47,723 nucleotides of DNA, taken from positions 1-47,723 of IMG/VR virus record IMGVR_UViG_3300027752_001623; one strand, written 5' to 3'. Positions 1,724 through 45,260 of the stretch are shown piece by piece; positions within the stretch are counted from its first letter, which is position 1; every line of letters begins with the position of its first letter. The position numbers and the translations under genes were made by a program. The notes under the pieces were generated by a model that ran no database searches, had not been told where the DNA came from, and was given only the letters and a program-made list of their open reading frames with translations. Origin of the DNA: a virus.

Positions 1724-2328
1724 ACAGAAAATTCCTTAAATTTCTCAAAGTTGATGTTCCAAATTACTTGAGGCACACTATAAAAATCTTGTATGCCTTC
1801 TGGAACAGCAATCCCTTTGCGTTTCCACCAATTACGTTTTATGTAATCAGTGATTGCGTTAGTGCTTTTGACATAATCGCCTGAGTATGTCTTGTTTGCT
1901 AGTGTTGTACCGAATGTTGCTTTAAAACCTGCCTGTTCATTTGCCCACTTGCAATTATAATATAGCAAGCCGTCAAACTCTGGCATCTCATGTCCTCTGC
2001 CGTATCGCACCATTTTAGTCATAGGTATATGTTCATTAGGTATGCGTGATAGCCTAGTCCATACTCGGTAATAACCGTCCTTGTATTCCGGCATGTACTG
2101 TACACCTGCTACAGCATATATCTCTTCTGTAGGTATGTGTACCATGCAATGGTATTTGATTGAGTCTACTTTCATTGCTTCGGGTGAAGCATTTTGTTTA
2201 AATCCTAAGTCTCCTGCAATTTTACAAAACTGTTCCAACTTCGGCATCCAGTAGTCATCTAGTTCTACACACCCGATTTTGCCGTCGAAAAAAGTTCTTA
2301 AGATTTTTTGATTGTTGCTATTAGCCAT
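1720..2328 (-). CDS. Unknown protein between desaturase and hydrolase genes
   Basis: The product is about 202 residues and I do not recognise it. It is rich in aromatic residues and has mixed alpha/beta character, with segments such as YAVAGVQYMPEYKDGYYRVWTRLSRIP and a basic NWWKRKG near the C-terminus. No signal peptide, membrane segment or metal-binding cluster is visible. The ATG at 2328 is preferred because TAGGCAG lies just upstream; an in-frame ATG at 2352 would add eight residues. Either start overlaps the desaturase gene, and its stop overlaps the hydrolase start. The tight coupling suggests a shared role with the lipid genes. A GNAT-like acyltransferase fold is conceivable, but I see no diagnostic motif. 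Confidence 0.75.
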   Translation of the reverse strand: MANSNNQKILRTFFDGKIGCVELDDYWMPKLEQFCKIAGDLGFKQNASPEAMKVDSIKYHCMVHIPTEEIYAVAGVQYMPEYKDGYYRVWTRLSRIPNEHIPMTKMVRYGRGHEMPEFDGLLYYNCKWANEQAGFKATFGTTLANKTYSGDYVKSTNAITDYIKRNWWKRKGIAVPEGIQDFYSVPQVIWNINFEKFKEFSV

Positions 2329-3065
2329 CTGCCTACGTCCAATTCGTACCATTTAGTATTAAAGTTTAATCTTGCTGGTCTATAATGATGATTGTTATGC
2401 AGGCTTTCGCCCCAACTAACAAACACTAACCAAGGATTGTTTGTGCTGTTGTTCTTAGTAGGATCTGTTTCGTATGTCAAACCTTTTAAAGGTAAGTGTC
2501 CAACGACATTAACGAGTCCACTAATCAACACAGCCGAGAAACTTGCATTTAAACTTGCAAGTACATACCTGCCCTCAAACCACCAACCAGTTAGTAAAGC
2601 AATTAAGACTAGATTTAAAATAATTAATAATATGTAATTTTTATGGCACCATAACGCATATGGGTCTAAATTCTTTCGCATTTTAAATAGTTCTGTTTGT
2701 GCAAATTGATGATTACTTCTATCAAAAATCCAGCCAAAGAAAGCATAAAATAATCCTTTCGTTGGGGTATGCACATCTTTTGCTGTGTCTGTGTGAGCAT
2801 GATGACTTCTGTTGTGTATAAGGCTCCATGTTACTGGAGATCCTTGTGCTCCTTGGCAACCTAAGTATAATACTAACTTGCGTATAGGCTCCCAAGTTTT
2901 AAAACTTCGATGACTGTGTAGTCTGTGGAATCCAACACTAACACCGTAACCACTATATAACACTGTAAATAATAATGTTGCAATCCATAGTGATGTTGTA
3001 CCGTAAAACAGTGAGTACCCAAAACTAATTGCGGCTAGTGGTAAGAATAGTAAGTAGAATAGCAT
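2298..3065 (-). CDS. Fatty acid desaturase (membrane, acyl-CoA/delta-9 type)
   Basis: This 255-residue membrane protein carries the three histidine boxes that bind the di-iron centre of membrane fatty acid desaturases: HRLHSH (residues 47-52), HNRSHH (84-89) and HNNHH near residue 220. Hydrophobic stretches near the N-terminus and around residues 140-190 should span the inner membrane. The family inserts a double bond into an acyl chain using oxygen and an electron donor. At 255 residues it is a compact member, without a fused cytochrome b5 domain. It begins one base inside the stop of a second desaturase gene, so the two form a tandem pair. Box spacing is typical of delta-9 type enzymes; regiospecificity cannot be read from sequence. 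Confidence 0.92.
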   Translation of the reverse strand: MLFYLLFLPLAAISFGYSLFYGTTSLWIATLLFTVLYSGYGVSVGFHRLHSHRSFKTWEPIRKLVLYLGCQGAQGSPVTWSLIHNRSHHAHTDTAKDVHTPTKGLFYAFFGWIFDRSNHQFAQTELFKMRKNLDPYALWCHKNYILLIILNLVLIALLTGWWFEGRYVLASLNASFSAVLISGLVNVVGHLPLKGLTYETDPTKNNSTNNPWLVFVSWGESLHNNHHYRPARLNFNTKWYELDVGRWLIATIKKS

Positions 3066-3889
3066 TATTTTTTGAGTCCTTTAATAACCCACCCACTCAT
3101 ATCAACTTCACTCCAATGGTGACTGTTGCTTTGTGCATTCCAATATCTGTGATGATTGTTATGTAGCATTTCTCCCCAAGTAAGTATAGCACCTACTCGA
3201 TTGTTCACACTGTTGTCTTTGGTCTCAAAGTTCTTGTACCCAAACCAACTGTAATGACTTAATGCTGTAACAGTACTTGTATTCATTAGTGTTGCCCATA
3301 TACCAAATACTATTCCGTATAATGCAACTTGCCATCCAAATAGTAACCATACTAGAGCAATTGCTCCATAGTTAATTGCCAAATAGTAATCATTTAAGAA
3401 TTGGTAATATTTGTCATTAACGAATCCACGTTTAATGTATGTAACTAATACACGCCTGTCAATGTGCATGTCGAAATACTTTTGTTCCCTGTGCCATGTT
3501 AAGAATGCATGCCAGAAACCTTGTAGTGGACTGTGTGGGTCACCATCTTTATCTGCGTTCTTGTGGTGCCCTGAAGTGTGTACCATAACCCAAGGAAAAA
3601 TTGCGCCGTATCCATTGAACACACTGCATGTTGTCATAATACGTTCTTTCCATTTAGGCATTTCAAATGCACTATGTCCCCAATACCTGTGTAAGCCAAC
3701 TGCCATTCCCACACAACCGAATAGGAAGTATGTAATAAGACCTAACCACAAGTAAGACCAATCGCCATTATATGCCATTATAGGAATTATGCACAATCCT
3801 ACTAACTGTATTGGCAAAGTGTACAACCAGAAGTTTGCTTTTGCTTTGTCTTTAAAAAAGTTTGTTAAGGAATTCAAAATTATTTTCAT
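3065..3889 (-). CDS. Second fatty acid desaturase
   Basis: This 274-residue paralogue of the neighbouring desaturase has all three histidine boxes: HRYWGH (67-72), HTSGHH (104-109) and HNNHH near residue 245. Strong hydrophobic segments occur at about 20-40, 44-66 and 170-200. The sequence differs considerably from the downstream copy, so this is not a recent duplication. The two enzymes may differ in the position desaturated or in substrate. Its start lies 38 bases inside the upstream gene, so it is translated from the same message. Like all such enzymes it needs iron, oxygen and host electron carriers. The family call is secure; the exact reaction is not. Confidence 0.92.
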   Translation of the reverse strand: MKIILNSLTNFFKDKAKANFWLYTLPIQLVGLCIIPIMAYNGDWSYLWLGLITYFLFGCVGMAVGLHRYWGHSAFEMPKWKERIMTTCSVFNGYGAIFPWVMVHTSGHHKNADKDGDPHSPLQGFWHAFLTWHREQKYFDMHIDRRVLVTYIKRGFVNDKYYQFLNDYYLAINYGAIALVWLLFGWQVALYGIVFGIWATLMNTSTVTALSHYSWFGYKNFETKDNSVNNRVGAILTWGEMLHNNHHRYWNAQSNSHHWSEVDMSGWVIKGLKK

Positions 3890-5975: not shown

Positions 5976-6239
5976 TTAGCCTGCAAATACGGTTCCGGAT
6001 CCTGTACTGGTGTGACCGCAAGTAGCAGTATCGCCTTCTCTGGTAACTGGCTGACCTTCAGCGAATACTGTGCTACTTGCACTGTTTATTGTTGCACTTG
6101 TATGTGGTGCTGAACCATGCGGTGCTTGTTTGTCGCCTATAACAGACGTTGTTTGACCTTCTGTTATAACGGTAGGGGCACCTGGTCCTAAATTAGTTCC
6201 ACCTGCTGTATCGGCTAGTACCTTAGTTACCCCTGGCAT
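5976..6239 (-). CDS. PAAR-domain spike tip protein
   Basis: This 87-residue PAAR-like protein has repeated short beta segments with Pro, Ala, Gly and His at turns (NLGPGAPTVITEGQ, PHGSAPHTSATI, CGHTSTGSGTVFAG). In contractile phage tails and type VI secretion systems such proteins fold as a cone that caps the central spike and binds a metal ion; the T4 equivalent is gp5.4. Length and the histidine/cysteine content near the C-terminus fit. Its ATG overlaps the TAA of nrdB by one base (TAATG), so a spike component is translated with ribonucleotide reductase. No membrane-piercing lysozyme domain is fused. The assignment is strong. Confidence 0.88.
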   Translation of the reverse strand: MPGVTKVLADTAGGTNLGPGAPTVITEGQTTSVIGDKQAPHGSAPHTSATINSASSTVFAEGQPVTREGDTATCGHTSTGSGTVFAG

Positions 6240-7336
6240 TATAAACTAAATCCTTTGAATGAATCTTGGTCTACGTCTTGCTTTGTTCCGCCAATAACGT
6301 AACTGCTGATTTCAGTTTCTTGTGGTGCTACTTGTACTTCGCCACCGCTTATCCACTTCTGTGTCCAAGGTAGAGGGTTTGTACCAGTATTAAAATCTGT
6401 TTCTATTTGTGCCGCTCTCATACGTTTGCCTGCAATAAACTCTACATACTGCTTTAACAGTTCTGCATTAAGTCCGATGATACTACCATCTTTAAACAAG
6501 TAGTCTGCCCATGCCTTTTCTTGCTCTACAGCGTCTAGGAACATTTGCTTACATTCGTCTTTAGTCTCTTCCTTAATCTTAGCAAAGTCTTTGTCATCTG
6601 CTGGCAACAATTTTAACATTGTTTGTGTACTAGCTAAATGCACATTTTCATCTCTAGCAATAAACTTGATAATCTTAGCGTTGCCTTCCATTTTCTTGAG
6701 TTCAGCAAATGCCCAACTACATGCAAAGGATACATAAAAACGTACACCTTCAAGAATGTTAACACTCATAATACATAACCATAATGCTTTCTTATGCTCG
6801 TATTCATTGTAACTAACTAGTCCACGCTCTCGAGCATGATTAAACTCTATAAGTGCATCGTATGTTGATGTAATACTATCGGCACAATCTGCTATTTGCT
6901 TATTGTTAAGCATCTCATCAAATACTTTACTAGGATCTGGATACACATTTCTAATGATATGCGTATAACTTCTGCTGTGAATTGTTTCACTGAATGCCCA
7001 AGTTTCAATCCATGTCTCTAACTCTGGGATTCCTACTATAGGCAAGAAAGCAAGATTAGGTGAACGTCCTTGCACACTGTCTAGTATTATTTGCCTTTTA
7101 AGATTACTTGTAAAAATATGTCTTTCAAAGTCTGTAAGGTCTTTGAAGTCTTTAGCATCTTTTACAATGTCAACTTCCTCTGGTCTCCAAAAGAAACCTA
7201 GTTGCTTCTCTGTGAACTTTTCAAACTGTCTGTATTTAACAACATCAAATCGTTGTACGTTTGGCGTACCGCGTGAATCTAAAAACATTTTTGCTTTAGT
7301 GTGGTCTGCCTTATTTTTTATGTCTAATACGCTCAT
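6239..7336 (-). CDS. nrdB: Ribonucleoside-diphosphate reductase, class Ia beta subunit
   Basis: The 365-residue NrdB supplies the tyrosyl radical for class Ia ribonucleotide reductase, which makes deoxyribonucleotides from NDPs. It aligns end to end with the enterobacterial protein: GFFWRPEEVD, LDSVQGRSPN, the ligand helix ETIHSRSYTH with the radical tyrosine, and the second di-iron helix DENVH. The C-terminus NrdA uses for docking (DVDQDSFKGFSL) is present. The ATG at 7336 is chosen: a purine-rich AAGAGAAG lies just upstream, and the family starts here. An upstream TTG would add only a lysine-rich stub. It lies 48 bases downstream of nrdA, in the same operon. All radical-site residues I can recall are intact. 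Confidence 0.97.
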   Translation of the reverse strand: MSVLDIKNKADHTKAKMFLDSRGTPNVQRFDVVKYRQFEKFTEKQLGFFWRPEEVDIVKDAKDFKDLTDFERHIFTSNLKRQIILDSVQGRSPNLAFLPIVGIPELETWIETWAFSETIHSRSYTHIIRNVYPDPSKVFDEMLNNKQIADCADSITSTYDALIEFNHARERGLVSYNEYEHKKALWLCIMSVNILEGVRFYVSFACSWAFAELKKMEGNAKIIKFIARDENVHLASTQTMLKLLPADDKDFAKIKEETKDECKQMFLDAVEQEKAWADYLFKDGSIIGLNAELLKQYVEFIAGKRMRAAQIETDFNTGTNPLPWTQKWISGGEVQVAPQETEISSYVIGGTKQDVDQDSFKGFSL

Positions 7337-7384
7337 TCTTCTCTTTTTCTTTTTTTGCTTTAGCAAAGCATAGTTCCTTCTTGG

Positions 7385-9676
7385 TTATATTTTACAACTC
7401 TCACAATCTTCATCATCTACAAAAGTAGTCGTGGGTAGCGATTGTTGCTCGTCATCTTTGTTTATATCAATCTCGCCTTGTCCATCGTATGTGTTGTTGT
7501 AGTATAACTGCTTGCCACCATATTTATAAAACATAATAAGATGTTGTAGCAATACAGACAACGGTACTTTCTCATCTTCAAAGTGTTCTGGATTGTAAGA
7601 TGTATTTACCGAAATGCCTTGGTCAATGTACTTTTGTAGAACAGCCATTATCTTCAAATAGCCTTCTGGTGACTTCTGATCCCACAGTAAGTCGTACTTA
7701 TTTTTAAGTCTTGGATAGCCTGGCACTACTTGTTTAAGTACGCCATGCTTACTTTGTTTAATACTAACGTAACTGCGTGGCGGTTCAATACCGTTTGTGC
7801 TGTTACTAATCTGTGCTGATGTCTCTGCTGGCATAAGTGCCATTAGTGTTGAGTTACGGATGCCAGTTTCTTTAAGTTGCTTACGCAATCCTTTCCAGTC
7901 CATACGTTCTTGGTGCTTAACTAATTCGTCAACGTCTGTTTTGTATGTTTGGTTAGGTGTAATACCGTGTCCGTACTTTGTTTCCATGTTCTTACTAATT
8001 ACGCCTTTCTCAATGGCTAGGTTAGCACTTGCTTTAATCAAGTAATAACTCCATGCTTCGGCCCATTCGTCTACTAACTCTAAGTTAGGATCTTGGTATG
8101 TTGTGTCATTCTTTGCTAACCAATATGCAAAGTTAATAATACCAACACCTAGTGGGCGTCTACTCATTGTGCTTAGTTCAGCGGCTATTACTGGATACTC
8201 CTGGTAGTCCAATAATTCATCCAATGCCCTAACTGCCAAGTCGCATACTTTCTCAAAATCTGCTGGCTTCTTAATTGCACCCCAGTTAATTGCACTTAAA
8301 GTACATAAACTAATCTCACCTTCTTCATCGTTAATATGTGTTAACGGCTTAGTGGGTAAGTTAATTTCACAACATAGGTTGCTTTGTCTAATAGGTGCAA
8401 GGTCTTCTATGAAAGAGCCATGTGTGTTTGCATGGTCCACATTCATTAAGTAAATTCTACCTGTATCTTTTCTTTCTTGCATAAAGTTACTGAACAGATC
8501 AATTGCTTTAATAGTTTTAAAACGTATGTCTGTACGTTTTTCTGCCGCTTCGTATAACTCTTTAAACTCTTCTTGGTCTGCAAAGAATGCATCATACAGT
8601 CCAGGAACATCGCTAGGACTAAACAATGTAATATTGCCGCCACTAATAAGTCGCTCATACATTAACTTGTTAAACTGTACACCATAATCCATATGACGTA
8701 CTCTGTTATCCTCTGTACCTTTGTTGTTCTTTAGTACAAGCATGTCTTCGATTTCTAAATGCCAAATAGGATAATATAATGTTGCCGCTCCACCTCTTAC
8801 TCCACCTTGTGAGCATGACTTAACTGCTGACTGGAATAGTTTAAAGAATGGAATAACTCCTGTGTGGGTTGCATCTCCACTTCTGATAGCTGAGCCAATT
8901 GCTCTAATGCTTCCTGCACCAATGCCTATGCCTGCTTTTTGACTTACATACTTAACCACTGCACTACTTGTTGCATTGATACTGTCTAAACTATCATCTG
9001 TCTCAATTAATACACAACTACTAAACTGTCGTTGCGGTGTTCTTACACCTGCCATAACTGGCGTAGGCAAAGATATTTTAAAAGTACTGATAGCATCGTA
9101 ATATGCTTTAACATATCTCATTCTAGTTTCTGCAGGATACTTACTGAACAATGTAGCCGCTATCATTATATATGCTACTTGTGGTGTTTCAAATATCTCA
9201 CCAGTTGCTCTGTTTTGTACTAGATACTTACCACGGAATTGTTCCATTGCCGCATAAGTTAAATACTCATCTCTAGCATGGTCGATGTATTCTTGTAATT
9301 GATTTATTTCATCTTTAGTATATAGCTCAGTAAACTCTTTATCATAAAACCCGATGTCAATGTTCTTATCAATAATGTCGCATAAGCAAGGAGGAGTAAA
9401 CGTACCGTAAACTTCCTTTCTTAAATGATAATTAATAAGCCTGCCACCCACATATTGGTAGTTCGGTGACTCTTCACTAATGAGGTCTGCCGCACTTTTA
9501 ATAAGGGTTTCTTGTATATCGATTGATGAAATTCTATCGAAAAATTGGATATGTGAGTTAATCTCTACTTCTGACGCACTAACTCCTGTTATGCCTTCAA
9601 CGGCATACATAACAACCTTGTGTAACTTATCAATATTTAAGTCTTCTAGTTGCCCGTCTCTCTTCTGTACCTGCAT
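7385..9676 (-). CDS. nrdA: Ribonucleoside-diphosphate reductase, class Ia alpha subunit
   Basis: The 763-residue catalytic subunit matches Escherichia coli NrdA throughout. An ATP-cone-like N-terminus (MQVQKRDGQLEDLNIDKLHK) suggests allosteric activity control. Active-site cysteines occur in SSCVLIE, QSNLCCEI and ISLCTLSA, and GIEPPRSYVSIKQSKHG forms part of the specific core. The C-terminal redox tail ends CESCKI, a CxxC pair where E. coli has two more residues between the cysteines; thioredoxin or glutaredoxin should reduce it. A consensus promoter lies 54 bases upstream, followed by a tandem repeat and the ribosome site AGGATAAACA before the ATG. It heads the nrdA-nrdB-PAAR transcript. Confidence 0.98.
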   Translation of the reverse strand: MQVQKRDGQLEDLNIDKLHKVVMYAVEGITGVSASEVEINSHIQFFDRISSIDIQETLIKSAADLISEESPNYQYVGGRLINYHLRKEVYGTFTPPCLCDIIDKNIDIGFYDKEFTELYTKDEINQLQEYIDHARDEYLTYAAMEQFRGKYLVQNRATGEIFETPQVAYIMIAATLFSKYPAETRMRYVKAYYDAISTFKISLPTPVMAGVRTPQRQFSSCVLIETDDSLDSINATSSAVVKYVSQKAGIGIGAGSIRAIGSAIRSGDATHTGVIPFFKLFQSAVKSCSQGGVRGGAATLYYPIWHLEIEDMLVLKNNKGTEDNRVRHMDYGVQFNKLMYERLISGGNITLFSPSDVPGLYDAFFADQEEFKELYEAAEKRTDIRFKTIKAIDLFSNFMQERKDTGRIYLMNVDHANTHGSFIEDLAPIRQSNLCCEINLPTKPLTHINDEEGEISLCTLSAINWGAIKKPADFEKVCDLAVRALDELLDYQEYPVIAAELSTMSRRPLGVGIINFAYWLAKNDTTYQDPNLELVDEWAEAWSYYLIKASANLAIEKGVISKNMETKYGHGITPNQTYKTDVDELVKHQERMDWKGLRKQLKETGIRNSTLMALMPAETSAQISNSTNGIEPPRSYVSIKQSKHGVLKQVVPGYPRLKNKYDLLWDQKSPEGYLKIMAVLQKYIDQGISVNTSYNPEHFEDEKVPLSVLLQHLIMFYKYGGKQLYYNNTYDGQGEIDINKDDEQQSLPTTTFVDDEDCESCKI

Positions 9677-12929: not shown

Positions 12930-13958
12930 TCATATCCTGCACAAAGATTTACCAGAACGAGGAGTTTTTGGTGTAAAATGATCTACAAACTGTTGTGGCA
13001 TTGATTCGATGCCTTCGTACATAGTATTAACGCATTGTAACTCGTCAATATGGTCGTTTATAAATTGGTGGAATTCATCAGTCCAATTAAATTGCTGTTT
13101 CCATTCTTCGGAACCATACACTAAGTCTTTAGTCATATTGCAACCACGAATGGTTATATCTTTTGTTGTTAGGGCAAAAAGGTTAGGTCCACCGCTTGGC
13201 ACTATATTTTGATACAAAGACATTACGCCACAGTAGGACATTGTGCCGCTGTAAGTCATATTCTGCAAAGCACTAAAGAAATAATCGTTGCCGACATTCT
13301 CATGGTAAGCATCGAACGGCTCACACGCACCTGATATAATAGCTCGCATTTTCATTAAAGGTGTTTTACGAGGAACGACAACACCAGTGCCGCCTAACTC
13401 GTTTACTAAGTCTGCTTTTTCCTGTGTGCTAGTAAGTCCGTATACAGTACAGCCCATAAGATTTGCAAATTGTACAACCATATTACCAACACCACCTGTT
13501 GCTCCACTTACACCAACAGTATCCGAAACATTAACTTTTAATACCTTAGTTAAGGAATAGTATGCTGTTCTTCCTACTAGGCTATAAAACGTTAGATACT
13601 TTTCCATATCTGTGCCAGGAGTTAACTTAAAATGTTCGGTATCGCCATTACCTATTGCATGTGTGCGCCAACCCTTCTTATGCCACAAGTGTGTATGAAC
13701 TGGGAAGTCTGCATTTTTGCTTTCTATAACTCTGCCTACTGACTCGCCTGGTATCCCTTCATTGAGAGTTATCATCGGGTAGTTAGGAAACACTTCACCT
13801 GGGTTCATCGAAATACGCATGTAAGGATCTGTACCGCAATAGATATTTTCTATTAAGTATTCACCGTCTTTAAGTTCAGGTAATACAAGGTCGATAACAC
13901 CAAAATTATCTAGCCCAACTTCACCTATAGCATGTTGTACTAATACTACTTGCTTCAT
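12930..13958 (-). CDS. NADP-dependent medium-chain oxidoreductase (CurA/prostaglandin reductase-like)
   Basis: This protein of about 342 residues belongs to the zinc-independent medium-chain dehydrogenase/reductase group that reduces alpha,beta-unsaturated ketones and aldehydes with NADPH. It has the opening substrate domain (IYCGTDPYMRI, IPGESVGRVIES), a Rossmann dinucleotide site GVSGATGGVGNMVVQFANLMG followed by VYGLTSTQEKADLV, and a Tyr in YHENVGNDYF where this subfamily places NADP-pocket residues. The ATG at 13958 overlaps the nuclease TGA as ATGA; the open frame extends 16 codons further upstream but that start lacks support. Detoxifying lipid-derived aldehydes is a possible role in a virus with desaturases, but that is inference. 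Family call is firm. Confidence 0.85.
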   Translation of the reverse strand: MKQVVLVQHAIGEVGLDNFGVIDLVLPELKDGEYLIENIYCGTDPYMRISMNPGEVFPNYPMITLNEGIPGESVGRVIESKNADFPVHTHLWHKKGWRTHAIGNGDTEHFKLTPGTDMEKYLTFYSLVGRTAYYSLTKVLKVNVSDTVGVSGATGGVGNMVVQFANLMGCTVYGLTSTQEKADLVNELGGTGVVVPRKTPLMKMRAIISGACEPFDAYHENVGNDYFFSALQNMTYSGTMSYCGVMSLYQNIVPSGGPNLFALTTKDITIRGCNMTKDLVYGSEEWKQQFNWTDEFHQFINDHIDELQCVNTMYEGIESMPQQFVDHFTPKTPRSGKSLCRI

Positions 13959-14629
13959 AGAATAGACTGATAATATTGCTCTAAACGTTGTGCCCACAGA
14001 CCACAATAATGGTCAAACTGGTCACCTTCGATTGTATATTGTTTGAATTCAACATCTCTACTAACCATAAGAATAACACACTTTCTAATATTAGTGTCGT
14101 ACATCTCATTGTGTGCTAGTGCATAGGCACAGCACTGTAAGTAGTAGTCTTGAACCCACGCTTCTTTTTTAATTTTCTTACTAGTCTTAAAGTCAATAAT
14201 AGCTTCTTCGCCGCCATGTATTCCTACACAGTCAGTTGTTCCAGCATAGAGCCCAGGAGCAATTAAGCCAACCTCAGTTCCCCATACTTCGCTAACATCA
14301 CCGAAGCCTTCGTTAATCATTAGGTTAGTCATATCCCTTGCAAGTATACTTACAAAGTTATTTCCTTTGATTTCGTAGTCTTCTTCTAGAATGAACTTCT
14401 CTAACGCATTATGCACTTTAGTTCCTAAGCCAGCACTTTCGGTACTTACTCTATTTGCTTCAGCATCACCGACACGTTTACGCCATGCAATCAAGGCAGT
14501 CTTGTCAGATGTTTTATCAAGTACAGTGGTCACACTAGGTACAGGGACATTATCGTCTCCCACATAGCGTCTACCTTCTTTGGTAGTAATTCGTTCTAAA
14601 GTTTTATATTGAATCTTATCTATTAACAT
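13955..14629 (-). CDS. PD-(D/E)XK exonuclease of the RecB/Cas4 type
   Basis: This 224-residue protein has the motifs of RecB-family nucleases: His73 in GTKVHNALE, Asp133 in AGTTDCVG, the catalytic IIDFKTSK with Asp146 and Lys148, and the helix QDYYLQCCAYA with Gln160 or Gln165. No four-cysteine iron-sulphur cluster of the Cas4 kind is visible. Such phage enzymes process DNA ends in recombination or degrade host DNA. It has its own sigma70-type promoter 30 bases upstream and heads a transcript with the oxidoreductase, to which it is translationally coupled. Metal-dependent nuclease activity is well supported; polarity and substrate are not. Confidence 0.85.
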   Translation of the reverse strand: MLIDKIQYKTLERITTKEGRRYVGDDNVPVPSVTTVLDKTSDKTALIAWRKRVGDAEANRVSTESAGLGTKVHNALEKFILEEDYEIKGNNFVSILARDMTNLMINEGFGDVSEVWGTEVGLIAPGLYAGTTDCVGIHGGEEAIIDFKTSKKIKKEAWVQDYYLQCCAYALAHNEMYDTNIRKCVILMVSRDVEFKQYTIEGDQFDHYCGLWAQRLEQYYQSIL

Positions 14630-14659: not shown

Positions 14660-14688
14660 ATTATAACACCTTTGATGGTGTTTGTCAA
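14660..14688 (-). promoter_or_regulatory. Sigma70-type promoter for the RecB-like nuclease
   Basis: Minus-strand TTGACA (14688-14683) and TATAAT (14665-14660) are perfect matches with the optimal 17-bp spacer. The -35 box overlaps the stop codon of the FeoA gene. The spacer contains the palindrome ACACC...GGTGT, a possible operator. Confidence 0.88.
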
Positions 14689-14915
14689 CCTTTTTTGACT
14701 ATTATCTGTGTTGCTATGCCCTTTCCTATAGATATTTTGGTGTTATGCAATCTAACTGCAAGTGGGCCTCCAAAGGGTGCAATATTAGCCACTGATACCT
14801 TAGTACCAACTGCAAAGCCTTGCTCTAGCAACTGAGTAGCCATTCGTGTATTATTAGGCAATGCTTGTATGTATGCTGTCTTGTTGCATCCTAATTCAGC
14901 TAAAGTTAACGACAT
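14685..14915 (-). CDS. feoA: FeoA-domain protein
   Basis: This 76-residue protein has the SH3-like layout of FeoA: LTLAELGCNKTAYIQALP, then ATQLLEQGFAVGTKVSVANI, the conserved turn APFGGPLAVRL, and a closing ISIGKGIATQIIV. Length equals stand-alone bacterial FeoA. FeoA is a small cytoplasmic partner of the FeoB ferrous iron transporter, thought to modulate its activity; the same fold also occurs at the C-terminus of iron-dependent repressors. The ATG at 14915 is chosen because FeoA starts here; a start at 14945 would add ten unrelated residues. It overlaps the SGNH-like gene by 10 bases. No feoB is in the window, so it would act on the host transporter or a gene elsewhere. Confidence 0.8.
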   Translation of the reverse strand: MSLTLAELGCNKTAYIQALPNNTRMATQLLEQGFAVGTKVSVANIAPFGGPLAVRLHNTKISIGKGIATQIIVKKG

Positions 14916-15979
14916 TGCAATATCTCTGCGATTTTGCGGTGCCAATTGTGACCATAGTGTATCTTATCTCTGGCAACAGAATCAAGTATCTGCTCTTTTG
15001 TGTGCTTCTTAGGATTAACTGTTTCTAGTTTAGGTATAATAGCCTTTGCTGGTCTAAAAATTGGAGGACAAAGTAGTCCCCATTTATGATAATCTAGTTG
15101 TCCGCCAACAGTAAAGTTAGAGTACATTACTAGTTCGATGTTGTTTGCTTTACAAAAATGCTCTAATGCTTCTTGTACCACAATCAAAATCATGTTTTGT
15201 GTCTGTAGTGGATATCCGTCATCTACACCTTTAAACTCATTTAAGAATGCTGACGCTTGTGCATGGGCGCCGCCCTCGATAATGCCTTTCTTACTAACTT
15301 GTGACATACGTTCGTTGTGGGGTATAACTGCGTATGCTTTGTTGAACGGCTTCTCGTTGTATAACTGTGTTAATAACAAATAAACATCCATTATACCTGA
15401 ACCACATATACCTACATTAAATATAGGAAGAGATTCACTAAGTTTGTTATGCCACAAGTTCTCTGCTGGCATACCTAACCCAAATGTGTGACTACAACCA
15501 AACACTGGAATAAACTCATTAGGTACCAAGTCGTCTACTTCTAAGTCAGTACGCAAACCTAAACTGTTTATACGGTAAGTGATATCAGGGAAAGATGCAA
15601 ACCATTCCTCATCGTCCATTCCTACATCTAGTAGTTTGTCCCACACTCGCTCTTTCTGTTTTTTCTGCTCAGGCGTTAAGTCAACATCATTGTGTGTCAT
15701 TGCTAACACCTGTGCTGGCTTGCCGGGTGTGTCTAAAGATAGATGCTTATATACTGCGGGTATGTTGTTGTGGTCTATTAGTGAGTTATTGTACTTGTCA
15801 GTGGTTTGGGTACCTTCAAAGAAGTCCCATATACCGGGTGCAAAATCCGTTTGTTCGTAATATGTATCGTGAATATGTATCCTAGTGATACCTGCTGTAA
15901 ATCTCTTTACATACTCATCAAAAGGTAATTGCCTAATACTGGCGAATGGAGTTGCTAACTTATTAAGTTGTGTTGACAT
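14906..15979 (-). CDS. SGNH-fold hydrolase-like protein with N-terminal extension
   Basis: This protein has 357 residues. The first 150 carry no motif I recognise. From about residue 160, PVFGCSHTFGLGMP gives SGNH block I, followed by FNVGICGSGIMDVYLLL (block II/III region, with Gly where Asn is usual), a strand KAYAVIPHNERMS, and at the C-terminus DKIHYGHNWH, which could supply the Asp-His pair. It resembles the proteins starting at 675 and 35962. It may modify glycans on the virion or cell surface, or have lost activity given the altered block III. Its start lies about 10 bases downstream of an AT-rich ACTAAATA resembling a weak late promoter. Confidence 0.65.
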   Translation of the reverse strand: MSTQLNKLATPFASIRQLPFDEYVKRFTAGITRIHIHDTYYEQTDFAPGIWDFFEGTQTTDKYNNSLIDHNNIPAVYKHLSLDTPGKPAQVLAMTHNDVDLTPEQKKQKERVWDKLLDVGMDDEEWFASFPDITYRINSLGLRTDLEVDDLVPNEFIPVFGCSHTFGLGMPAENLWHNKLSESLPIFNVGICGSGIMDVYLLLTQLYNEKPFNKAYAVIPHNERMSQVSKKGIIEGGAHAQASAFLNEFKGVDDGYPLQTQNMILIVVQEALEHFCKANNIELVMYSNFTVGGQLDYHKWGLLCPPIFRPAKAIIPKLETVNPKKHTKEQILDSVARDKIHYGHNWHRKIAEILQCR

Positions 15980-19841: not shown

Positions 19842-20807
19842 TTATTTTTTGAGGAGTTTTGATTTAAGTAAATCTTTAAAGTAATTCTCTGCCATTACTT
19901 GTTGCTCACTACTGGTATGTGAAAAGACTTGCATTACTTCTTCAATGTCTGCATCTATCATAATCGTTTTTACACGTTTAATACCTAATACATTTGCGGC
20001 ATCAAATCTATGGTGCCCATTAATCAAGTAACCCTTTTTGTCTACTATGAACGGTTTGTCTTCATTGTTTAAAAATACATCTCGAGATTTCTTTGCCAAG
20101 CCATCTACACGTTGAGTCTGTACTGGCTTAATCTTATCTATGGTCATCTCGCCTTCTTTATAGTTAAAGTCGGAATCTTGTATATGCTGTCTATTAATTT
20201 GCGGTAACTCGTTTCTAGCAAAAGTCTTTTCGTGTATTGGTCTAACATAACTTTCTTCTATGCCCTTTCTCAATCGTACAACACCACATGCTAATCTATC
20301 GCCAGCATTGCCTGTCTTAAGACTTTCATCGTCACCGCCTGTGCCTAAGTCATCTTCGCCTGCATGTATAACTATTGCTCTGCCAACAATACTACGCTCG
20401 CCAGTTAAATCCACACGCCTAGCAACAATCTTAAATTTTGCGATGCCGTCCTCGTTAGCAACAATGTTTCCTAAATCACCGATGTGTCCGTCAGACAATC
20501 CGCCATGCTCACTGTTATCTGGATTGTAATGTCCACCAGCACTTGCACAACCATCGCTTAGGTCACCAAATTCGTGTACATGGAATCCATGTTTACCCGG
20601 AGTAAGTCCTTTAATTATACCTCGTATAATAGTAGGGCTATCAGGTTCTTGCTTCATAACTATTGCACCAGTAATGTCGCCTTCAACATGTTCTAGTTGC
20701 ACTACTGCTTTAACTGTTTCTTGTGCTTCCTGGATAGTACTAACACTAGCACACTCGCACGTCTTTGCTTTTGTTCTAGGGCAACTTGTAAAGTCTGTTG
20801 TTCTCAC
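19842..20807 (-). CDS. Cu/Zn superoxide dismutase fused to a ParB-like domain
   Basis: This 321-residue two-domain protein has a complete Cu/Zn superoxide dismutase at residues 32-180. Metal ligands are His76, His78 and His148 (copper), bridging His93, and His101, His108 and Asp111 (zinc). Cys87 and Cys174 can form the structural disulphide, and GNAGDRLACGVV supplies the guiding arginine. Residues 200-300 form a ParB-like domain with the hallmark LINGHHRFDAANVLG after a strand KPFIVDKKG. There is no signal peptide, unlike most bacterial Cu/Zn enzymes, so it stays in the cytoplasm or enters the virion. The start is GTG at 20807, one base inside the TAG of the giant upstream gene, with AAAGGTG before it. 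No frameshift separates the two parts; both domains are confident, the purpose of the fusion is not. Confidence 0.88.
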   Translation of the reverse strand: MRTTDFTSCPRTKAKTCECASVSTIQEAQETVKAVVQLEHVEGDITGAIVMKQEPDSPTIIRGIIKGLTPGKHGFHVHEFGDLSDGCASAGGHYNPDNSEHGGLSDGHIGDLGNIVANEDGIAKFKIVARRVDLTGERSIVGRAIVIHAGEDDLGTGGDDESLKTGNAGDRLACGVVRLRKGIEESYVRPIHEKTFARNELPQINRQHIQDSDFNYKEGEMTIDKIKPVQTQRVDGLAKKSRDVFLNNEDKPFIVDKKGYLINGHHRFDAANVLGIKRVKTIMIDADIEEVMQVFSHTSSEQQVMAENYFKDLLKSKLLKK

Positions 20808-23800
20808 TATAGTACACCTTTGTTAAGACTTAACTGAGCCCATTGCTCTCTACCAGCGCCTGCTTGTGTTGGTATAACACTAATTGACGTTGACATTGAA
20901 TGTCCGCTACGTCTAAATGCAATCAAATCTTTTTCATTCTTAATCATTGCAGTTTTCATATTAGGTATACTTATTAGCAATAGCCCGTCAAAATCATCTC
21001 TGTTCTTATACCATAAGAAGTTTTGTGTTAAGTAAACATTTTCAAGTTGGGTTATATCCGTCTGCGTTGCTATAGCATCACATAATGGGCCAGCATAGCC
21101 TTCCATATCCATTGTGAATAGTTCCTGTGCTATTGCTTTTCTTACTTTCTGATTATTTACATCAGTTGCTGGTAAGTCTACGTTCAAACCGTTTATAAAT
21201 TTAGTCCAACCTAAACTTCCACCTTGTCCGCCAATGGATGACATAATAGTTGGAATGTATTCTGCGTACTTGTCGATAACTGCTCTCTTAGCCTTTTGAC
21301 TTCCGCCGCCGTAACCAATTCTTCCGCCTGTGCTACTAGTAGCCGCTTTAAGTTCTACTTTGCCTATGCCCTTGATCTCCAAGTCACCTTCACCTACTGC
21401 AAGGCTAATCTGATTACTTAAACATGCCAAGCCATATTCACCTGGACCTTTTTGGTTAACACCAACACCATATGATGTTAATGCCCTAAAGGCTGATATA
21501 GATATATCATCTCCGAACACTGCTTGGAAACTGTTAATAGGTTTGTTTAACTCTTTAATGTTTACTACAGTGCCTTGTTTCTCTAAACGTGCTATGAAGC
21601 CGCTCATTGTGCCATAGTCACTGTCTAGTCCGCCGATTATCCTTGTTACATCTTGTATAACTTTTAATTTTTGCTTATCTGATAGTGGCTCGTCCATTAA
21701 TGGAAAACTAAATGCTTTGTCTAACGTTTTACCAATATGGTCACTGTTAAGTAATTTGTAAATTCTATCTAGTATATTAGCATGTTGCTCATTGCTGGCA
21801 TCTAGTCCGCTAATAGTTTTAATAATAGTATCTTTTTCAACACCTAAGTCAGTATACTCGTTAATTAGTTTAGTAACGTGCTGTTTGCTCCATTCAGATA
21901 AATTAATCTGTGCTTTCGTTGCATCTGGTAATACACCTACAAACATCTGTAGTATATTTCTCGCACATGCATCGTCGCCGGCCTCTGCTCGCAACCTTCT
22001 AAAATTGTCTAGCATTGCAGGAACAGGTATTGCTTGGTAAGCCAACATTTGCTTTTTAAGGTCGCCTACAGGAAAATGGTCTGCTAGTAAATCATTTATT
22101 GTATCTACTTGCTTAAAGTCTGGTACATTTTCCTCAACTCCAACTCTATTTCTATCATGTACATATGAATCCGGGTCTTTCTTAAACTCTGTATCTTTAG
22201 CTTTTTTAAGTTCTCTTCGATCTTTAGTAAAACCTTTATTGCTAAATCCAAACGAGCCTTTAGGCTTTCGATTAGGCTGGCTCACTTTTTTTATACTTTT
22301 GATTCCCAATGCTTTCTTTTGCTTCTCCGGATGGCGCACCCCAGGTGCTAATTGTAGATAAACAGCATATGGACTTGACGCCATTACTTCTTTATTACTA
22401 CCATCTTTATATGCCACGTTCCATAGGTGTTGTCCACTAGGAATATCCTTTGATGCTTCGTAAATTTTATCAATTTTTTCTTTGCTAATTTTACTAATAA
22501 TGTTTATCTGCTCTTCCAACGGCAACTTATCAAATTTATCAAATACACTTTCTTTATTCATTGGGGTCTCTTCTGCTTTTATTTTTTTAGACAGTTCTGG
22601 GTTCTGTGAGGCCCATGCCGCCGCTGAACCTAAATCAAACGGTTCTCCGTGTGGGCCTTGTAAATACTGTTGTGGAATTAGTGGTGCGAAGTCATATGGC
22701 TTTCCGCCTATTCTGCCGTCACCCAGTTCATCTGTTATTGCAACTCTCTTTTGTTTTGTCAACTTTATTAAGGCAAGGTCTTGTTTCCAAGAAACATATC
22801 TACTGTTTAAATCTTTAAATTCTATCTCGTACACCATCTTGAACTTTGCAAGTATCCTTATTGATATATCGTATCTCCAGTTACTGCCGTAACGTTGAAC
22901 ATTGTCATAGATTTCCTGAGCCTGCAAGGCTGTAAATTTGTGGGCATGTGGCATTACTAACACATCGCGGTACTTAGACTTATGCATGGACGCATTCATA
23001 TCAAACGCATTTGAAATTTCCTCGTCTGTCATGTTTGCTAATTTGTTTGCGGATCCTACTGTACTCTTTGCATAATATACCTCTCCGCCATACGACCAAG
23101 CATTTAATTTTGCAAGTCGTTGCTCTCCATGCTTATCCATAAACTTCTTTTGCTTCTGCATTAATTGTGTTTTCTTGTCTACATCAATGTTAGCAGAATC
23201 AAATCCTAGTTTCTGTGATATTTTATCTACACCGTTTATAAAGTTAGATATTGCATCTGTTCGTGCCTTCAACAATACAGGTAACTTACCTGCATCGAAC
23301 ACATCGGCGCCGTATCGGTTCTTAGCTCTAAAGTGCCTGTCAAATACATCTCTTATATATTGTTGCATTAGATCTCTGACACGAGACATAGGTTCACTAC
23401 TAAATGGGTCAGGTGCTTCTTGGTTGTCAATAAGTGCAACAACTTTCATAAGTTCTTCTGTTGTTGAATATGTCATACCAAAATAGTCCAATCCGTCATC
23501 TGAGTCTCTATGAGGGTCTATATCGTTTAGTGCAGGATCAAAGTCCGTCATTGGGTGGTTTGGATTAGTAGTCAGCTTGGGAGTCATTGCCTTTATTAAC
23601 TCACTGACTTCAGCGGCTGAGTCGTAGTACATTGCAGGGTTTGTTTCTTTTATTCGTGTTAGTTCATCAAACCGTGCTCTTAGTTTAATTATCATCTTGC
23701 TTAATGCGTTATCAGTATAGTCGTCATCGCCAGTGCCGTTAGGATTATGTCCTACTGCAACTGGGTGGTCATAGTCTTCATAACTGTCCAAGTGCTTTAT

Positions 23801-26563
23801 TAGTTGTTCTACACCTTTTTCGTTAACAGGATTACCTACTTTAAACCAACTGCCGTCTTTGTTAATACCGGCGGAGTTATACGATCCGTTAACCAACGTC
23901 CTATAAAAAACCTTCCACTCTCGTTTAGGAAGTTGATCCCATGCATAAGCAATTGTCTCGTCATCTTGATTTGTTGCTTTAGCAATAGCTTTAAAGAACT
24001 TGTCACCTTGTTCGCCTGATGTTGTTGCTTCGCCGTTGCTTGCTCGCCATAGCCCTTTTATAATTTTCTCAACTTGTGGTGATGTTAAGAATGCAGGTAA
24101 TGTAACAATTGCCTTTTTAAACAATCTATTGACACCGTTTTGTATTCTACTGAGTAATGCTTGTTGTTCTATATCACGGTCTTTAGTAACATAGTCAGCC
24201 TGAGCGTTTACCATAGTATCAAGTTTGTTGTAATCAAGTTCAAAGTCTTTTAATGTATTTCGGAATACACCAATTGCTTTTGCATTCAGTGATCCTCTAT
24301 TTAAATTTTGGCTTAAATCATACCCAGCTTGTGCTATTGCATTTACAAAGGCTTCTTGTGCTTTCTTTAAAAATGCAGGTGCTTCTTTGCTAGGTGCTAA
24401 TTTTCTAGGTTTTGCATAACCCGTAATCGGTTCACCGTCAGTAGCTTCTTCTACATGCTTCGAACCTGTTTCTGTTTCCCATTTCTTAACTGCTTCTTTC
24501 CATGCCTCATCTGCGCCTGGACTAATTAACTTTCTGTAACGAGTTAAGTTGTTAACTGCTACAGCAACATGATCCATTGAATCAATATATCCGCCTTTTG
24601 AGAAAAATGGTTTAATTGTATCTACTATAGGAAGTTCAACATCGAATCTGCCTTTGATACGCTCTTCGTCTTTTGGATCAACTGCGTCTAAACTGTTAAT
24701 CAGTTTAAATAACGCTTTTGCATAATCGGTATTATGTGTTTGATCACTGTATGCCGAGCTCATTGTAGCCGCATAACGTATAACTGCTTTAGCGGCTATG
24801 TCAAAATTAGTGTGATAATCATCACCGCCACCGATTCTAAATTCAATTAAGTTGTTACCGGTTGTACCGTCTTTGTCAGTTTTGAAGTTAATACTACTAA
24901 ACTTGCCAGTACTAATACCGCTAGAGATTATTCTCTCAATCCCTTCTATAGACTTCATATCTTCTGGATTTGACTTTAATTTCTCTGCGGCTTTCTTTAA
25001 ATTATCGTATTGACTCTTGGCATAACTGTTACTGGATCTGCCAAATGTACTTAACAAATACTTGTCGCCTAATAACACAGCAAGTTTTACTTTGTTTACT
25101 TCTTGAGGAGTCTCGCTGTTTAAACTCATTGTTACATGTAGTCCACAACTTCTATTAGTTTCAACACCTTCGCCGGACATCCACTCAAACATGCTCTTCA
25201 TTTCGTGTAGCATGTCTCTAGGTGAATCATATACCGGACTAATAAGCTCTGCACCAGTGCCGCCGTCTGATTCAATTGAACTGTCATCTTCTACACGCCA
25301 GTACGTCTGGTCTGCTCCGTAGCCGCTGTGATATTCACCTGCTTCTACTTCTTTAAATTCACTGCTCTTGTCTGTCCAACGTGTTAGTTCAGCGGCAACT
25401 TCTTCTACGCCGCCGCCACTGTTTGGGTTATGCAGATATATGTCTAGCGAACTTAATGCACTCAGCCAGCTACCGTGTTCATCGCTGGCCCATGTGTCTA
25501 TAGGATACTCTTCTTCTGCTTGTTCAACGGCTTCTTCCATTGCTTCACCATTGTCTCTAATGCTTTCTTCGAGCCATTCTATAAGTTCATCTTCTTTTAC
25601 TTCTTCTGCATACTGTCTTGCAAATGCTTGAAGGTCCCAATCTGCAAACTCGTCTCTGTCATCAGCATCTACACTGGCTAAAAATGATTCTTTGTACTCT
25701 TCAACTTCATCCATGTCTAATTTATCGTCAACAAAAGCGTCTATATATTCTTCATCTTCTTTACGGTCTGATACCATACGTTGAATAATCTCGCTTTCGT
25801 ATTCGTATGCTTTATCATACATCCACTCTCTATACGATTCTTGCACTGCTTCTACGCTTCTGCTACCTTCTTGCTCGTACACATAGTCTTCGATGTTGTA
25901 CCAGTTTTCGTCATCTAACCAGTCTTCGTCATCAGAGCTATTAGCAACGTCATTCCAAACTGTTTCTGCTTCAAACCCACATTTAATGTTTACATCTAAT
26001 GCCGCTTTGGCTATGTCAGGTTTGTTAAAATTGATTTCAAATAATTGCTCGTCACCTTGTTCACGTAACTTAAATTTACGCACAAGTTTTTTCATGCCTG
26101 TTTTTATTTTGTTTAGTTTAAGATGCGATGAATTAGACTTACTTAACTTAGATAGTTTACTAGCATTAAGTACTTGTACTTCTTCATCTGGTTCGACCAG
26201 TTGATACTCACCCTTAGGATCTTGTACTACAACTTTGTCTGGATTCGGGGAGTTGCCAACTTTACTAATTACTTTGCCTACTACTTCGCCTTTATCATCG
26301 TGATACTCAGCATCTACTTCTATATCTTTGGCTTTAGTTTTTGTATATGTTGGTTCAACTTTCTCAGGCTCTACGTCTTTAACATCGAGGCCAGGAGTTA
26401 CAGTAGGACTACCTTTGTCTACTTTAGGCTTAGGTGCATTGCTTGTTGCATTTGCTTTTGCAGTTGCCCCTGTCTGTTGTTGACTAGTCGGTGTACTTGA
26501 ACCTGAATTCATTCCATATTCTACCAGTACACTTTCTAAAGTTCTAACATCTGTAAATTTCAT
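20807..26563 (-). CDS. Giant protein with amidoligase-like and nuclease-like regions, tagged N-terminus
   Basis: This 1918-residue protein begins MKFTDVRTLESVLVEYG, with LVE at 13-15 a possible prohead protease site, then a Ser/Thr/Pro/Lys-rich linker to about 150. Residues 196-600 carry the landmarks of the Amidoligase_2 family (COOH-NH2 ligases): CGFEAE (195-200), WRVEDDSS...GTGAELISP (422-443), TNRSCGLHVT (469-478) and NLIEFRIGGGDD (571-582). A very acidic insertion (205-355) splits the first two. Residues 600-1700 are mostly helical and unassigned, with a Lys-rich part near 1450. Residues 1720-1740 read GEGDLEIKGIGKVELKA, the order D...ExK of PD-(D/E)XK nucleases. T4 packages Alt in a similar way. 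Domain readings are by eye. Confidence 0.85.
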   Translation of the reverse strand: MKFTDVRTLESVLVEYGMNSGSSTPTSQQQTGATAKANATSNAPKPKVDKGSPTVTPGLDVKDVEPEKVEPTYTKTKAKDIEVDAEYHDDKGEVVGKVISKVGNSPNPDKVVVQDPKGEYQLVEPDEEVQVLNASKLSKLSKSNSSHLKLNKIKTGMKKLVRKFKLREQGDEQLFEINFNKPDIAKAALDVNIKCGFEAETVWNDVANSSDDEDWLDDENWYNIEDYVYEQEGSRSVEAVQESYREWMYDKAYEYESEIIQRMVSDRKEDEEYIDAFVDDKLDMDEVEEYKESFLASVDADDRDEFADWDLQAFARQYAEEVKEDELIEWLEESIRDNGEAMEEAVEQAEEEYPIDTWASDEHGSWLSALSSLDIYLHNPNSGGGVEEVAAELTRWTDKSSEFKEVEAGEYHSGYGADQTYWRVEDDSSIESDGGTGAELISPVYDSPRDMLHEMKSMFEWMSGEGVETNRSCGLHVTMSLNSETPQEVNKVKLAVLLGDKYLLSTFGRSSNSYAKSQYDNLKKAAEKLKSNPEDMKSIEGIERIISSGISTGKFSSINFKTDKDGTTGNNLIEFRIGGGDDYHTNFDIAAKAVIRYAATMSSAYSDQTHNTDYAKALFKLINSLDAVDPKDEERIKGRFDVELPIVDTIKPFFSKGGYIDSMDHVAVAVNNLTRYRKLISPGADEAWKEAVKKWETETGSKHVEEATDGEPITGYAKPRKLAPSKEAPAFLKKAQEAFVNAIAQAGYDLSQNLNRGSLNAKAIGVFRNTLKDFELDYNKLDTMVNAQADYVTKDRDIEQQALLSRIQNGVNRLFKKAIVTLPAFLTSPQVEKIIKGLWRASNGEATTSGEQGDKFFKAIAKATNQDDETIAYAWDQLPKREWKVFYRTLVNGSYNSAGINKDGSWFKVGNPVNEKGVEQLIKHLDSYEDYDHPVAVGHNPNGTGDDDYTDNALSKMIIKLRARFDELTRIKETNPAMYYDSAAEVSELIKAMTPKLTTNPNHPMTDFDPALNDIDPHRDSDDGLDYFGMTYSTTEELMKVVALIDNQEAPDPFSSEPMSRVRDLMQQYIRDVFDRHFRAKNRYGADVFDAGKLPVLLKARTDAISNFINGVDKISQKLGFDSANIDVDKKTQLMQKQKKFMDKHGEQRLAKLNAWSYGGEVYYAKSTVGSANKLANMTDEEISNAFDMNASMHKSKYRDVLVMPHAHKFTALQAQEIYDNVQRYGSNWRYDISIRILAKFKMVYEIEFKDLNSRYVSWKQDLALIKLTKQKRVAITDELGDGRIGGKPYDFAPLIPQQYLQGPHGEPFDLGSAAAWASQNPELSKKIKAEETPMNKESVFDKFDKLPLEEQINIISKISKEKIDKIYEASKDIPSGQHLWNVAYKDGSNKEVMASSPYAVYLQLAPGVRHPEKQKKALGIKSIKKVSQPNRKPKGSFGFSNKGFTKDRRELKKAKDTEFKKDPDSYVHDRNRVGVEENVPDFKQVDTINDLLADHFPVGDLKKQMLAYQAIPVPAMLDNFRRLRAEAGDDACARNILQMFVGVLPDATKAQINLSEWSKQHVTKLINEYTDLGVEKDTIIKTISGLDASNEQHANILDRIYKLLNSDHIGKTLDKAFSFPLMDEPLSDKQKLKVIQDVTRIIGGLDSDYGTMSGFIARLEKQGTVVNIKELNKPINSFQAVFGDDISISAFRALTSYGVGVNQKGPGEYGLACLSNQISLAVGEGDLEIKGIGKVELKAATSSTGGRIGYGGGSQKAKRAVIDKYAEYIPTIMSSIGGQGGSLGWTKFINGLNVDLPATDVNNQKVRKAIAQELFTMDMEGYAGPLCDAIATQTDITQLENVYLTQNFLWYKNRDDFDGLLLISIPNMKTAMIKNEKDLIAFRRSGHSMSTSISVIPTQAGAGREQWAQLSLNKGVL

Positions 26564-45230: not shown

Positions 45231-45260
45231 ATTATACTACCAGTTGTAGCCTAATGTCAA
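45231..45260 (-). promoter_or_regulatory. Sigma70-type promoter for uvsW
   Basis: Minus-strand TTGACA (45260-45255) and TATAAT (45236-45231) are perfect hexamers with an 18-bp spacer. It lies across the 3' end of the receptor gene, whose stop is at 45237, and leads to the uvsW ATG after 24 bases. Confidence 0.8.

Follow-up and report, generated by a model that had tools for sequence, protein, structure and literature searches.

Why would a phage carry a gene for FeoA, the small partner of the ferrous iron transporter FeoB, and leave the transporter itself behind? The question is raised by the IMG/VR record IMGVR_UViG_3300027752_001623, a linear virus sequence of 47,723 bases that was analyzed here over its full length (hereafter the window) and that, being linear, may be a fragment. 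A first-pass annotation of this DNA had proposed that a 76-residue FeoA-like protein is encoded between an SGNH-like gene and a nuclease, that no FeoB accompanies it, and that the protein might either modulate host FeoB or interfere with DtxR/Fur regulation. The coordinates of the genes that bear on these proposals are collected in Table 1.

Table 1. Positions of feoA and other features in the window
Feature	Position	Strand	Details
feoA, stand-alone FeoA-domain protein	14685..14915	-	76 aa; PF04023 59.8 bits
357-aa gene directly upstream of feoA	14906..15979	-	placed by coordinates; labeled 'SGNH-like' earlier
PD-(D/E)XK-type phage exonuclease, immediately downstream of feoA	13955..14629	-	phrog_298 184 bits
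Class I ribonucleotide reductase, small and large subunits	6239..9676	-	phrog_86 475.6 bits, phrog_84 1023 bits; PF00268 165.5 bits
Two adjacent fatty-acid desaturases	2298-3065, 3065-3889	-	PF00487 62.5 and 56.7 bits
TonB-dependent receptor-like protein	45237-46910	-	557 aa; plug domain PF07715 33.5 bits
Cu/Zn superoxide dismutase domain with ParB-like C-terminal part, one ORF	19842-20807	-	321 aa; 158 bits (dismutase domain)
Zinc-type/CurA-like oxidoreductase, immediately downstream of the nuclease	12930-14006	-
Protein with weak amidoligase domain match	20807-26563	-	1918 aa
PAAR-motif protein, adjoining the ribonucleotide reductase genes	5976-6239	-	87 aa; 34.7 bits

The viral protein and its genomic setting

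The open reading frame is a true FeoA. Against Pfam-A the protein matches PF04023 alone (E value 2.8e-16), above the curated cut-off of 23 bits and over profile positions 2-73 of 74, and the window record contains no other FeoA match. When its sequence was compared with those of PDB entries by phmmer, FeoA-type chains took the first five places and seven of nine overall. The NCBIfam model for ferrous iron transporter A is matched only weakly, at 15 bits versus a cut-off of 102, and a PHROG search returned zero family matches. The frame opens with an ATG at 14915; an in-frame TTG at 14945 is an alternative start that would yield 86 residues, and cellular homologs begin at residue 3 of the 76-residue form.

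The predicted structure agrees with this assignment. An AlphaFold2 model built from a 16-row alignment (pLDDT 89.9) contains strands and a helix at residues 23-32, in keeping with the FeoA architecture, in which roughly 75 residues form a single SH3-like barrel that bears a helical clamp. Foldseek ranked the FeoA structure 3e19 first, with TM scores of up to 0.91 to 3e19 and 7r7b. The profile match and this fold ranking together rule out another SH3-like family, and the earlier claim of a FeoA-like protein is borne out by both. A search of the BFVD structure library gave zero matches at E <= 0.001, which speaks only to the lack of an obvious relative in that library.

The same model also matches the C-terminal SH3-like domains of IdeR, ScaR, and manganese-dependent repressors, with TM scores (normalized to the query) of 0.71-0.91. 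Thus, the likeness to repressor C-terminal domains noted in the first-pass annotation stands for IdeR, ScaR, and MntR-type proteins. It does not extend to Fur, the usual iron regulator of gammaproteobacteria, which is not known to have a C-terminal SH3-like domain. Members of the DtxR/MntR/IdeR family carry an N-terminal winged helix and a dimerization domain, whereas the 76-residue viral protein has neither a DNA-binding nor a dimerization part and no Pfam match to the DtxR family. With FeoA providing both the best folds and the sole Pfam match, the suggested interference with DtxR/Fur regulation finds no support.

The long open reading frames of the window lie mostly on the minus strand, and feoA sits inside a long block of genes on that strand. 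The gene directly upstream and feoA share 10 bases, where the 3′ end of the former runs over the start of the latter, and so the two may be translationally coupled. The product of this upstream gene had zero matches in Pfam, PHROG, and NCBIfam, and its sole viral relative found belongs to the same phage population. Of the two flanking genes named earlier, then, the nuclease is confirmed by its PHROG family, whereas the SGNH-like label has no profile match behind it. The nuclease scores 21.1 bits against PDDEXK_1, just below the cut-off of 22.

The wider setting is that of a phage. Apart from the exonuclease and the ribonucleotide reductase genes (NrdA/NrdB), the window carries a DnaB-like helicase, a DNA helicase, a primase, and ThyX, so that feoA is part of a phage genome and has phage genes around it. 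A DUF6267 protein of the window is matched by 467 phage records, mostly of cyanophages but also of Methylophilales and Pelagibacter phages. The window overlaps two contigs from metagenome 3300027849, with 99.6-99.95% identity, and one overlapping contig of that metagenome bears a terminase large subunit and virion proteins. In the separately assembled IMGVR_UViG_3300027849_000043, the feoA arrangement is the same (99.95% over 13 kb) and the feoA copy is 100% identical. From this gene content, we read the window record as a fragment of a marine T4-like phage.

Other genes of the window deserve mention in their own right. The TonB-dependent receptor-like protein is unusual phage cargo, and a 98% identical copy of its gene is present in IMGVR_UViG_3300027849_000577. 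We set it aside as a second iron gene because Pfam recognizes only its plug domain and its match to a B12-receptor barrel (E value 4.9e-6) is far below the cut-off. A superoxide dismutase domain fused to a ParB-like part, the oxidoreductase beyond the nuclease, a very long protein with a weak amidoligase match, and a PAAR-motif protein complete this list (Table 1). A Fur-box search of the window gave a best match of 14/19 positions, and shuffled sequence gave 14-15, so there is no excess of such sites.

The transporter gene is missing from the viral records searched. The FeoB_C profile had 0 matches in the window record and in three further viral records, overlapping contigs included, and the same search was positive in three of three Colwellia genomes. 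No feoB lies beside or near feoA in these four records, which are linear and possibly fragments, and the earlier statement that FeoB is absent is therefore correct for the window record. The window, like most of the other viral records, is probably a fragment, so FeoB may be encoded elsewhere in the complete phage genome.

Cellular ancestry and recurrence among phages

A second viral FeoA, 57-58% identical to the window copy in the viral scan, is encoded by IMGVR_UViG_3300004461_002028, a 17-kb fragment that also carries phage exonuclease, ATPase, and thymidylate-kinase-like families. By tblastx, feoA is the sole region that this fragment has in common with the window. A scan of genome contigs with these two viral proteins found 22 cellular loci at 50-59% identity, with one FeoA copy per genome. 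According to their record titles, 20 of the 22 are from Colwellia, one is from Litorilituus, and one is from an uncultured Alteromonadaceae bacterium. As the contig scan depends on peptide patterns derived from its viral queries, whole genomes were searched as well, in draws centered on a Colwellia genome. FeoA matches were present in 107 of 395 genomes from the family and in 96 of 394 from the order. In both draws, a set that includes the Colwellia genomes scored 49-80 bits and all others scored 37 bits or less. At every one of the 59 cellular loci examined (22 from the contig scan and 37 from the two draws, with some genomes counted twice), feoA has feoB as its neighbor.

A 43-row tree separates the Colwelliaceae-type group from the outgroup with support of 100/100; the viral pair is nested in this group and is itself supported at 84/84. 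A second, smaller tree recovers the Colwelliaceae-type grouping (100/99) and does not recover the viral proteins as sisters; with only 74 columns in either tree, fine placement is unsure. Therefore, either one or two acquisitions are possible. On this phylogenetic evidence, the window feoA is best described as a derivative of a cellular, Colwellia-type gene. The host may be a Colwellia-like gammaproteobacterium as well, with FeoA as the one gene behind this assignment. No tRNA genes that could point to the host were found. The oxidoreductase is uninformative as a host marker, with no more than about 30% identity to any protein from the family and class draws, and the TonB-dependent receptor has a weak match in one of 22 Colwellia-type genomes.

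Stand-alone FeoA proteins are recurrent in unrelated phages and have more than one origin. With a Firmicute-type FeoA alignment as the query, at least 26 further viral loci emerged from IMG/VR. At 25 of them, a FeoA-like reading frame occurs without FeoB in the stretch, and the FeoB_C profile is absent from the whole records of these 25. The exception, L081 (IMGVR_UViG_2551306228_000002), has FeoB adjacent and was dropped as a stand-alone case. The single match among named phage records, MT835719.1 ('Bacteriophage sp.'), was likewise set aside as bacterial: FeoA and FeoB are side by side, and the translations, judged by eye, include glutamyl-tRNA synthetase-like and chemoreceptor-like genes. 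Because the viral and genome scans require short exact peptide patterns, all of these counts are lower bounds. When a different FeoA type, from the order sampled above, served as the query, zero viral relatives were returned.

By shared DNA, the loci form seven groups (L083-L089 with L091-L093; L094-L097; L098 with L100-L105; and L082, L090, L099, and L106 singly). All nine proteins tested, at least one per group, score above the PF04023 cut-off, and so does the copy in one of the three further viral records searched for FeoB (G001). Two records in the first group are 372 kb long. The genes near feoA include those for PhoH, a phrog_298 exonuclease, and GroES at L100, RNA ligase and GroES at L085, UvsX at L106, and a weak portal match at L082. 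At L099 the neighbor is a DNA methyltransferase, which is not a phage hallmark, and at L090 the sole neighboring protein tested had zero matches. Thus, the viral nature of these two loci depends on the call made by IMG/VR itself. On a large-phage contig, L092, a nicotinamide phosphoribosyltransferase gene (94-2353) lies upstream of feoA and is preceded by a nucleotidyltransferase-like gene, recognized by eye from its N terminus.

L098 and L100, whose FeoA proteins fall in another part of the tree, likewise have feoA near a gene of the nuclease family that adjoins feoA in the window. Some viral copies are shortened (64 residues in L100) or have Cys/Arg-rich ends (L094 and L106). A single grouping of all 13 viral rows is rejected (p-AU 0.00017), so that on this tree, which has long branches and few columns and must be viewed with caution, FeoA entered phages at least twice. 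Perhaps unrelated T4-like and very large phages have independently taken only FeoA to seize host FeoB while encoding no transporter, although we hold this generalization only tentatively.

Sequence constraint and a possible action on host FeoB

The window FeoA is under strong sequence constraint. Between the two Colwellia-type viral proteins, which are 57% identical, pN is 0.24 versus a pS of 0.79 that is saturated. Across 34 cellular rows, 23 columns show no variation; the window copy keeps 20 of these and the second viral copy 21. In the 50 variable columns, the cellular majority state is present in 22 and 24 cases, respectively. Thus, the viral changes fall mostly where cellular FeoAs vary too. 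Four residues (Y15, G37, K74, and K75) are common to both viral proteins and absent from the 34 cellular rows.

In the FeoAB protein of B. fragilis, a hydrophobic clamp of FeoA has been linked to the contact between FeoA and FeoB (PMC8980893). The corresponding residues, listed as viral/B. fragilis, are M25/F23, L29/I27, Q32/M30, I61/I59, and I63/L61. The viral protein is hydrophobic at four of the five, and its glutamine at the other position is also found in Colwellia. Together, the sequence of the window copy and its constraint point to ordinary FeoA function.

Given these features, the reading we favor, at about even confidence, is that a marine T4-like phage has kept a host-derived FeoA that acts on the FeoB of the host, so that ferrous import stays on. 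During infection, the viral protein would attach to host FeoB at its cytoplasmic GTPase domain and slow GTP hydrolysis there, and the Fe2+ channel would be held in a conducting state independent of host feoAB expression. The resulting rise in intracellular iron might serve viral enzymes, with the ribonucleotide reductase and the two fatty-acid desaturases as possible consumers. Both the small subunit of class I ribonucleotide reductase and the fatty-acid desaturases are diiron enzymes. Modulation of host FeoB, as first proposed for this locus, is therefore the best fit to the Colwellia-type feoA-feoB ancestry, the clamp residues, and the constraint. That viral FeoA is expressed, that it binds FeoB, and that it activates rather than blocks the transporter are steps that we infer.

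The B. fragilis study describes a nucleotide-dependent contact of FeoA with the FeoB GTPase domain and GTP hydrolysis that is about 50-fold faster when FeoA is removed, and it suggests that the transporter is held in a 'turned on' state by FeoA (PMC8980893). The same article (PMC8980893) mentions two in vitro studies of stand-alone systems in which FeoA had virtually no effect on GTP hydrolysis, which argues against taking the sign of the FeoA effect as given.

It is conceivable, but quite improbable in our view, that the viral protein acts as a brake, occupying host FeoB or displacing host FeoA so that Fe2+ import is shut and less Fenton chemistry occurs during replication. The evidence for docking serves this idea equally well, and a viral Cu/Zn superoxide dismutase domain is encoded nearby. 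However, the clamp residues and most of the columns invariant in cellular FeoAs are kept, and the phage encodes enzymes of iron-dependent families. A change of partner is unlikely too, although it has somewhat more in its favor: the FeoA fold could be kept for binding another phage or host protein, such as a DtxR/MntR-type regulator or another GTPase. The kinship of the SH3-like fold with repressor C-terminal domains, the four residues restricted to the two viral copies, and the shortened or Cys/Arg-rich forms in other phages would all be consistent with this possibility. Against it, the window copy looks like an ordinary FeoA in sequence and constraint, and Pfam detects no regulator domain in it.

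Because phages do pick up host genes, feoA might also be a functionless passenger. We consider this very unlikely, given that the observed constraint at 57% identity largely refutes it, that the frame is intact, and that stand-alone FeoA occurs in several unrelated phages for which one common origin is rejected. There is still less reason to suspect bacterial DNA or a chimeric assembly, even though MT835719.1, with FeoA next to FeoB, looks like just such a case. The window feoA has a phage exonuclease as its neighbor within a long one-strand block, the arrangement is present in two separately assembled contigs that are 99.95% identical over 13 kb, and an overlapping contig carries terminase and virion genes. 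Activation of host FeoB by a viral FeoA thus remains our preferred reading.

Significance and comparison with known systems

The window feoA can be classed as a host-derived, putative auxiliary gene, unusual in that a transporter's regulator has been acquired without the transporter. We found no report of a phage-encoded FeoA in the open-license texts of PMC. Since the phage carries FeoA and no importer, it may steer the host's own iron uptake during infection. Iron limits growth in large areas of the ocean, and phages have reportedly been cast as a 'Ferrojan Horse' that carries iron in their tails. If the proposal is true, then a viral regulator of the host Fe2+ channel would be another route from infection to altered iron flow. 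Furthermore, how FeoA affects FeoB is a debated question (PMC8980893), and natural FeoAs evolving apart from their FeoB could serve to test which surfaces matter.

The closest cellular relatives found for the viral protein are the FeoAs of Colwellia and Litorilituus, which are up to 59% identical to it, equal in length, and share most invariant residues. They differ in that feoB accompanies them at all 59 loci, whereas the viral feoA stands alone in a phage gene block. The FeoA domain of B. fragilis FeoAB (PDB 7R7B) resembles the viral protein in its SH3-like fold (TM 0.91) and in the hydrophobic character of four of five clamp positions, but it is fused to FeoB (PMC8980893) and is only about 23% identical. 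A functional parallel is found in phage auxiliary genes for nutrient uptake, such as that for the TonB-dependent SusC-type receptor of Mar_Mega_1 (PMC9723777). In both instances, a host-type gene in a phage is proposed to raise nutrient import during infection, although the viral FeoA would do so as a small regulator of a host transporter and for ferrous iron.
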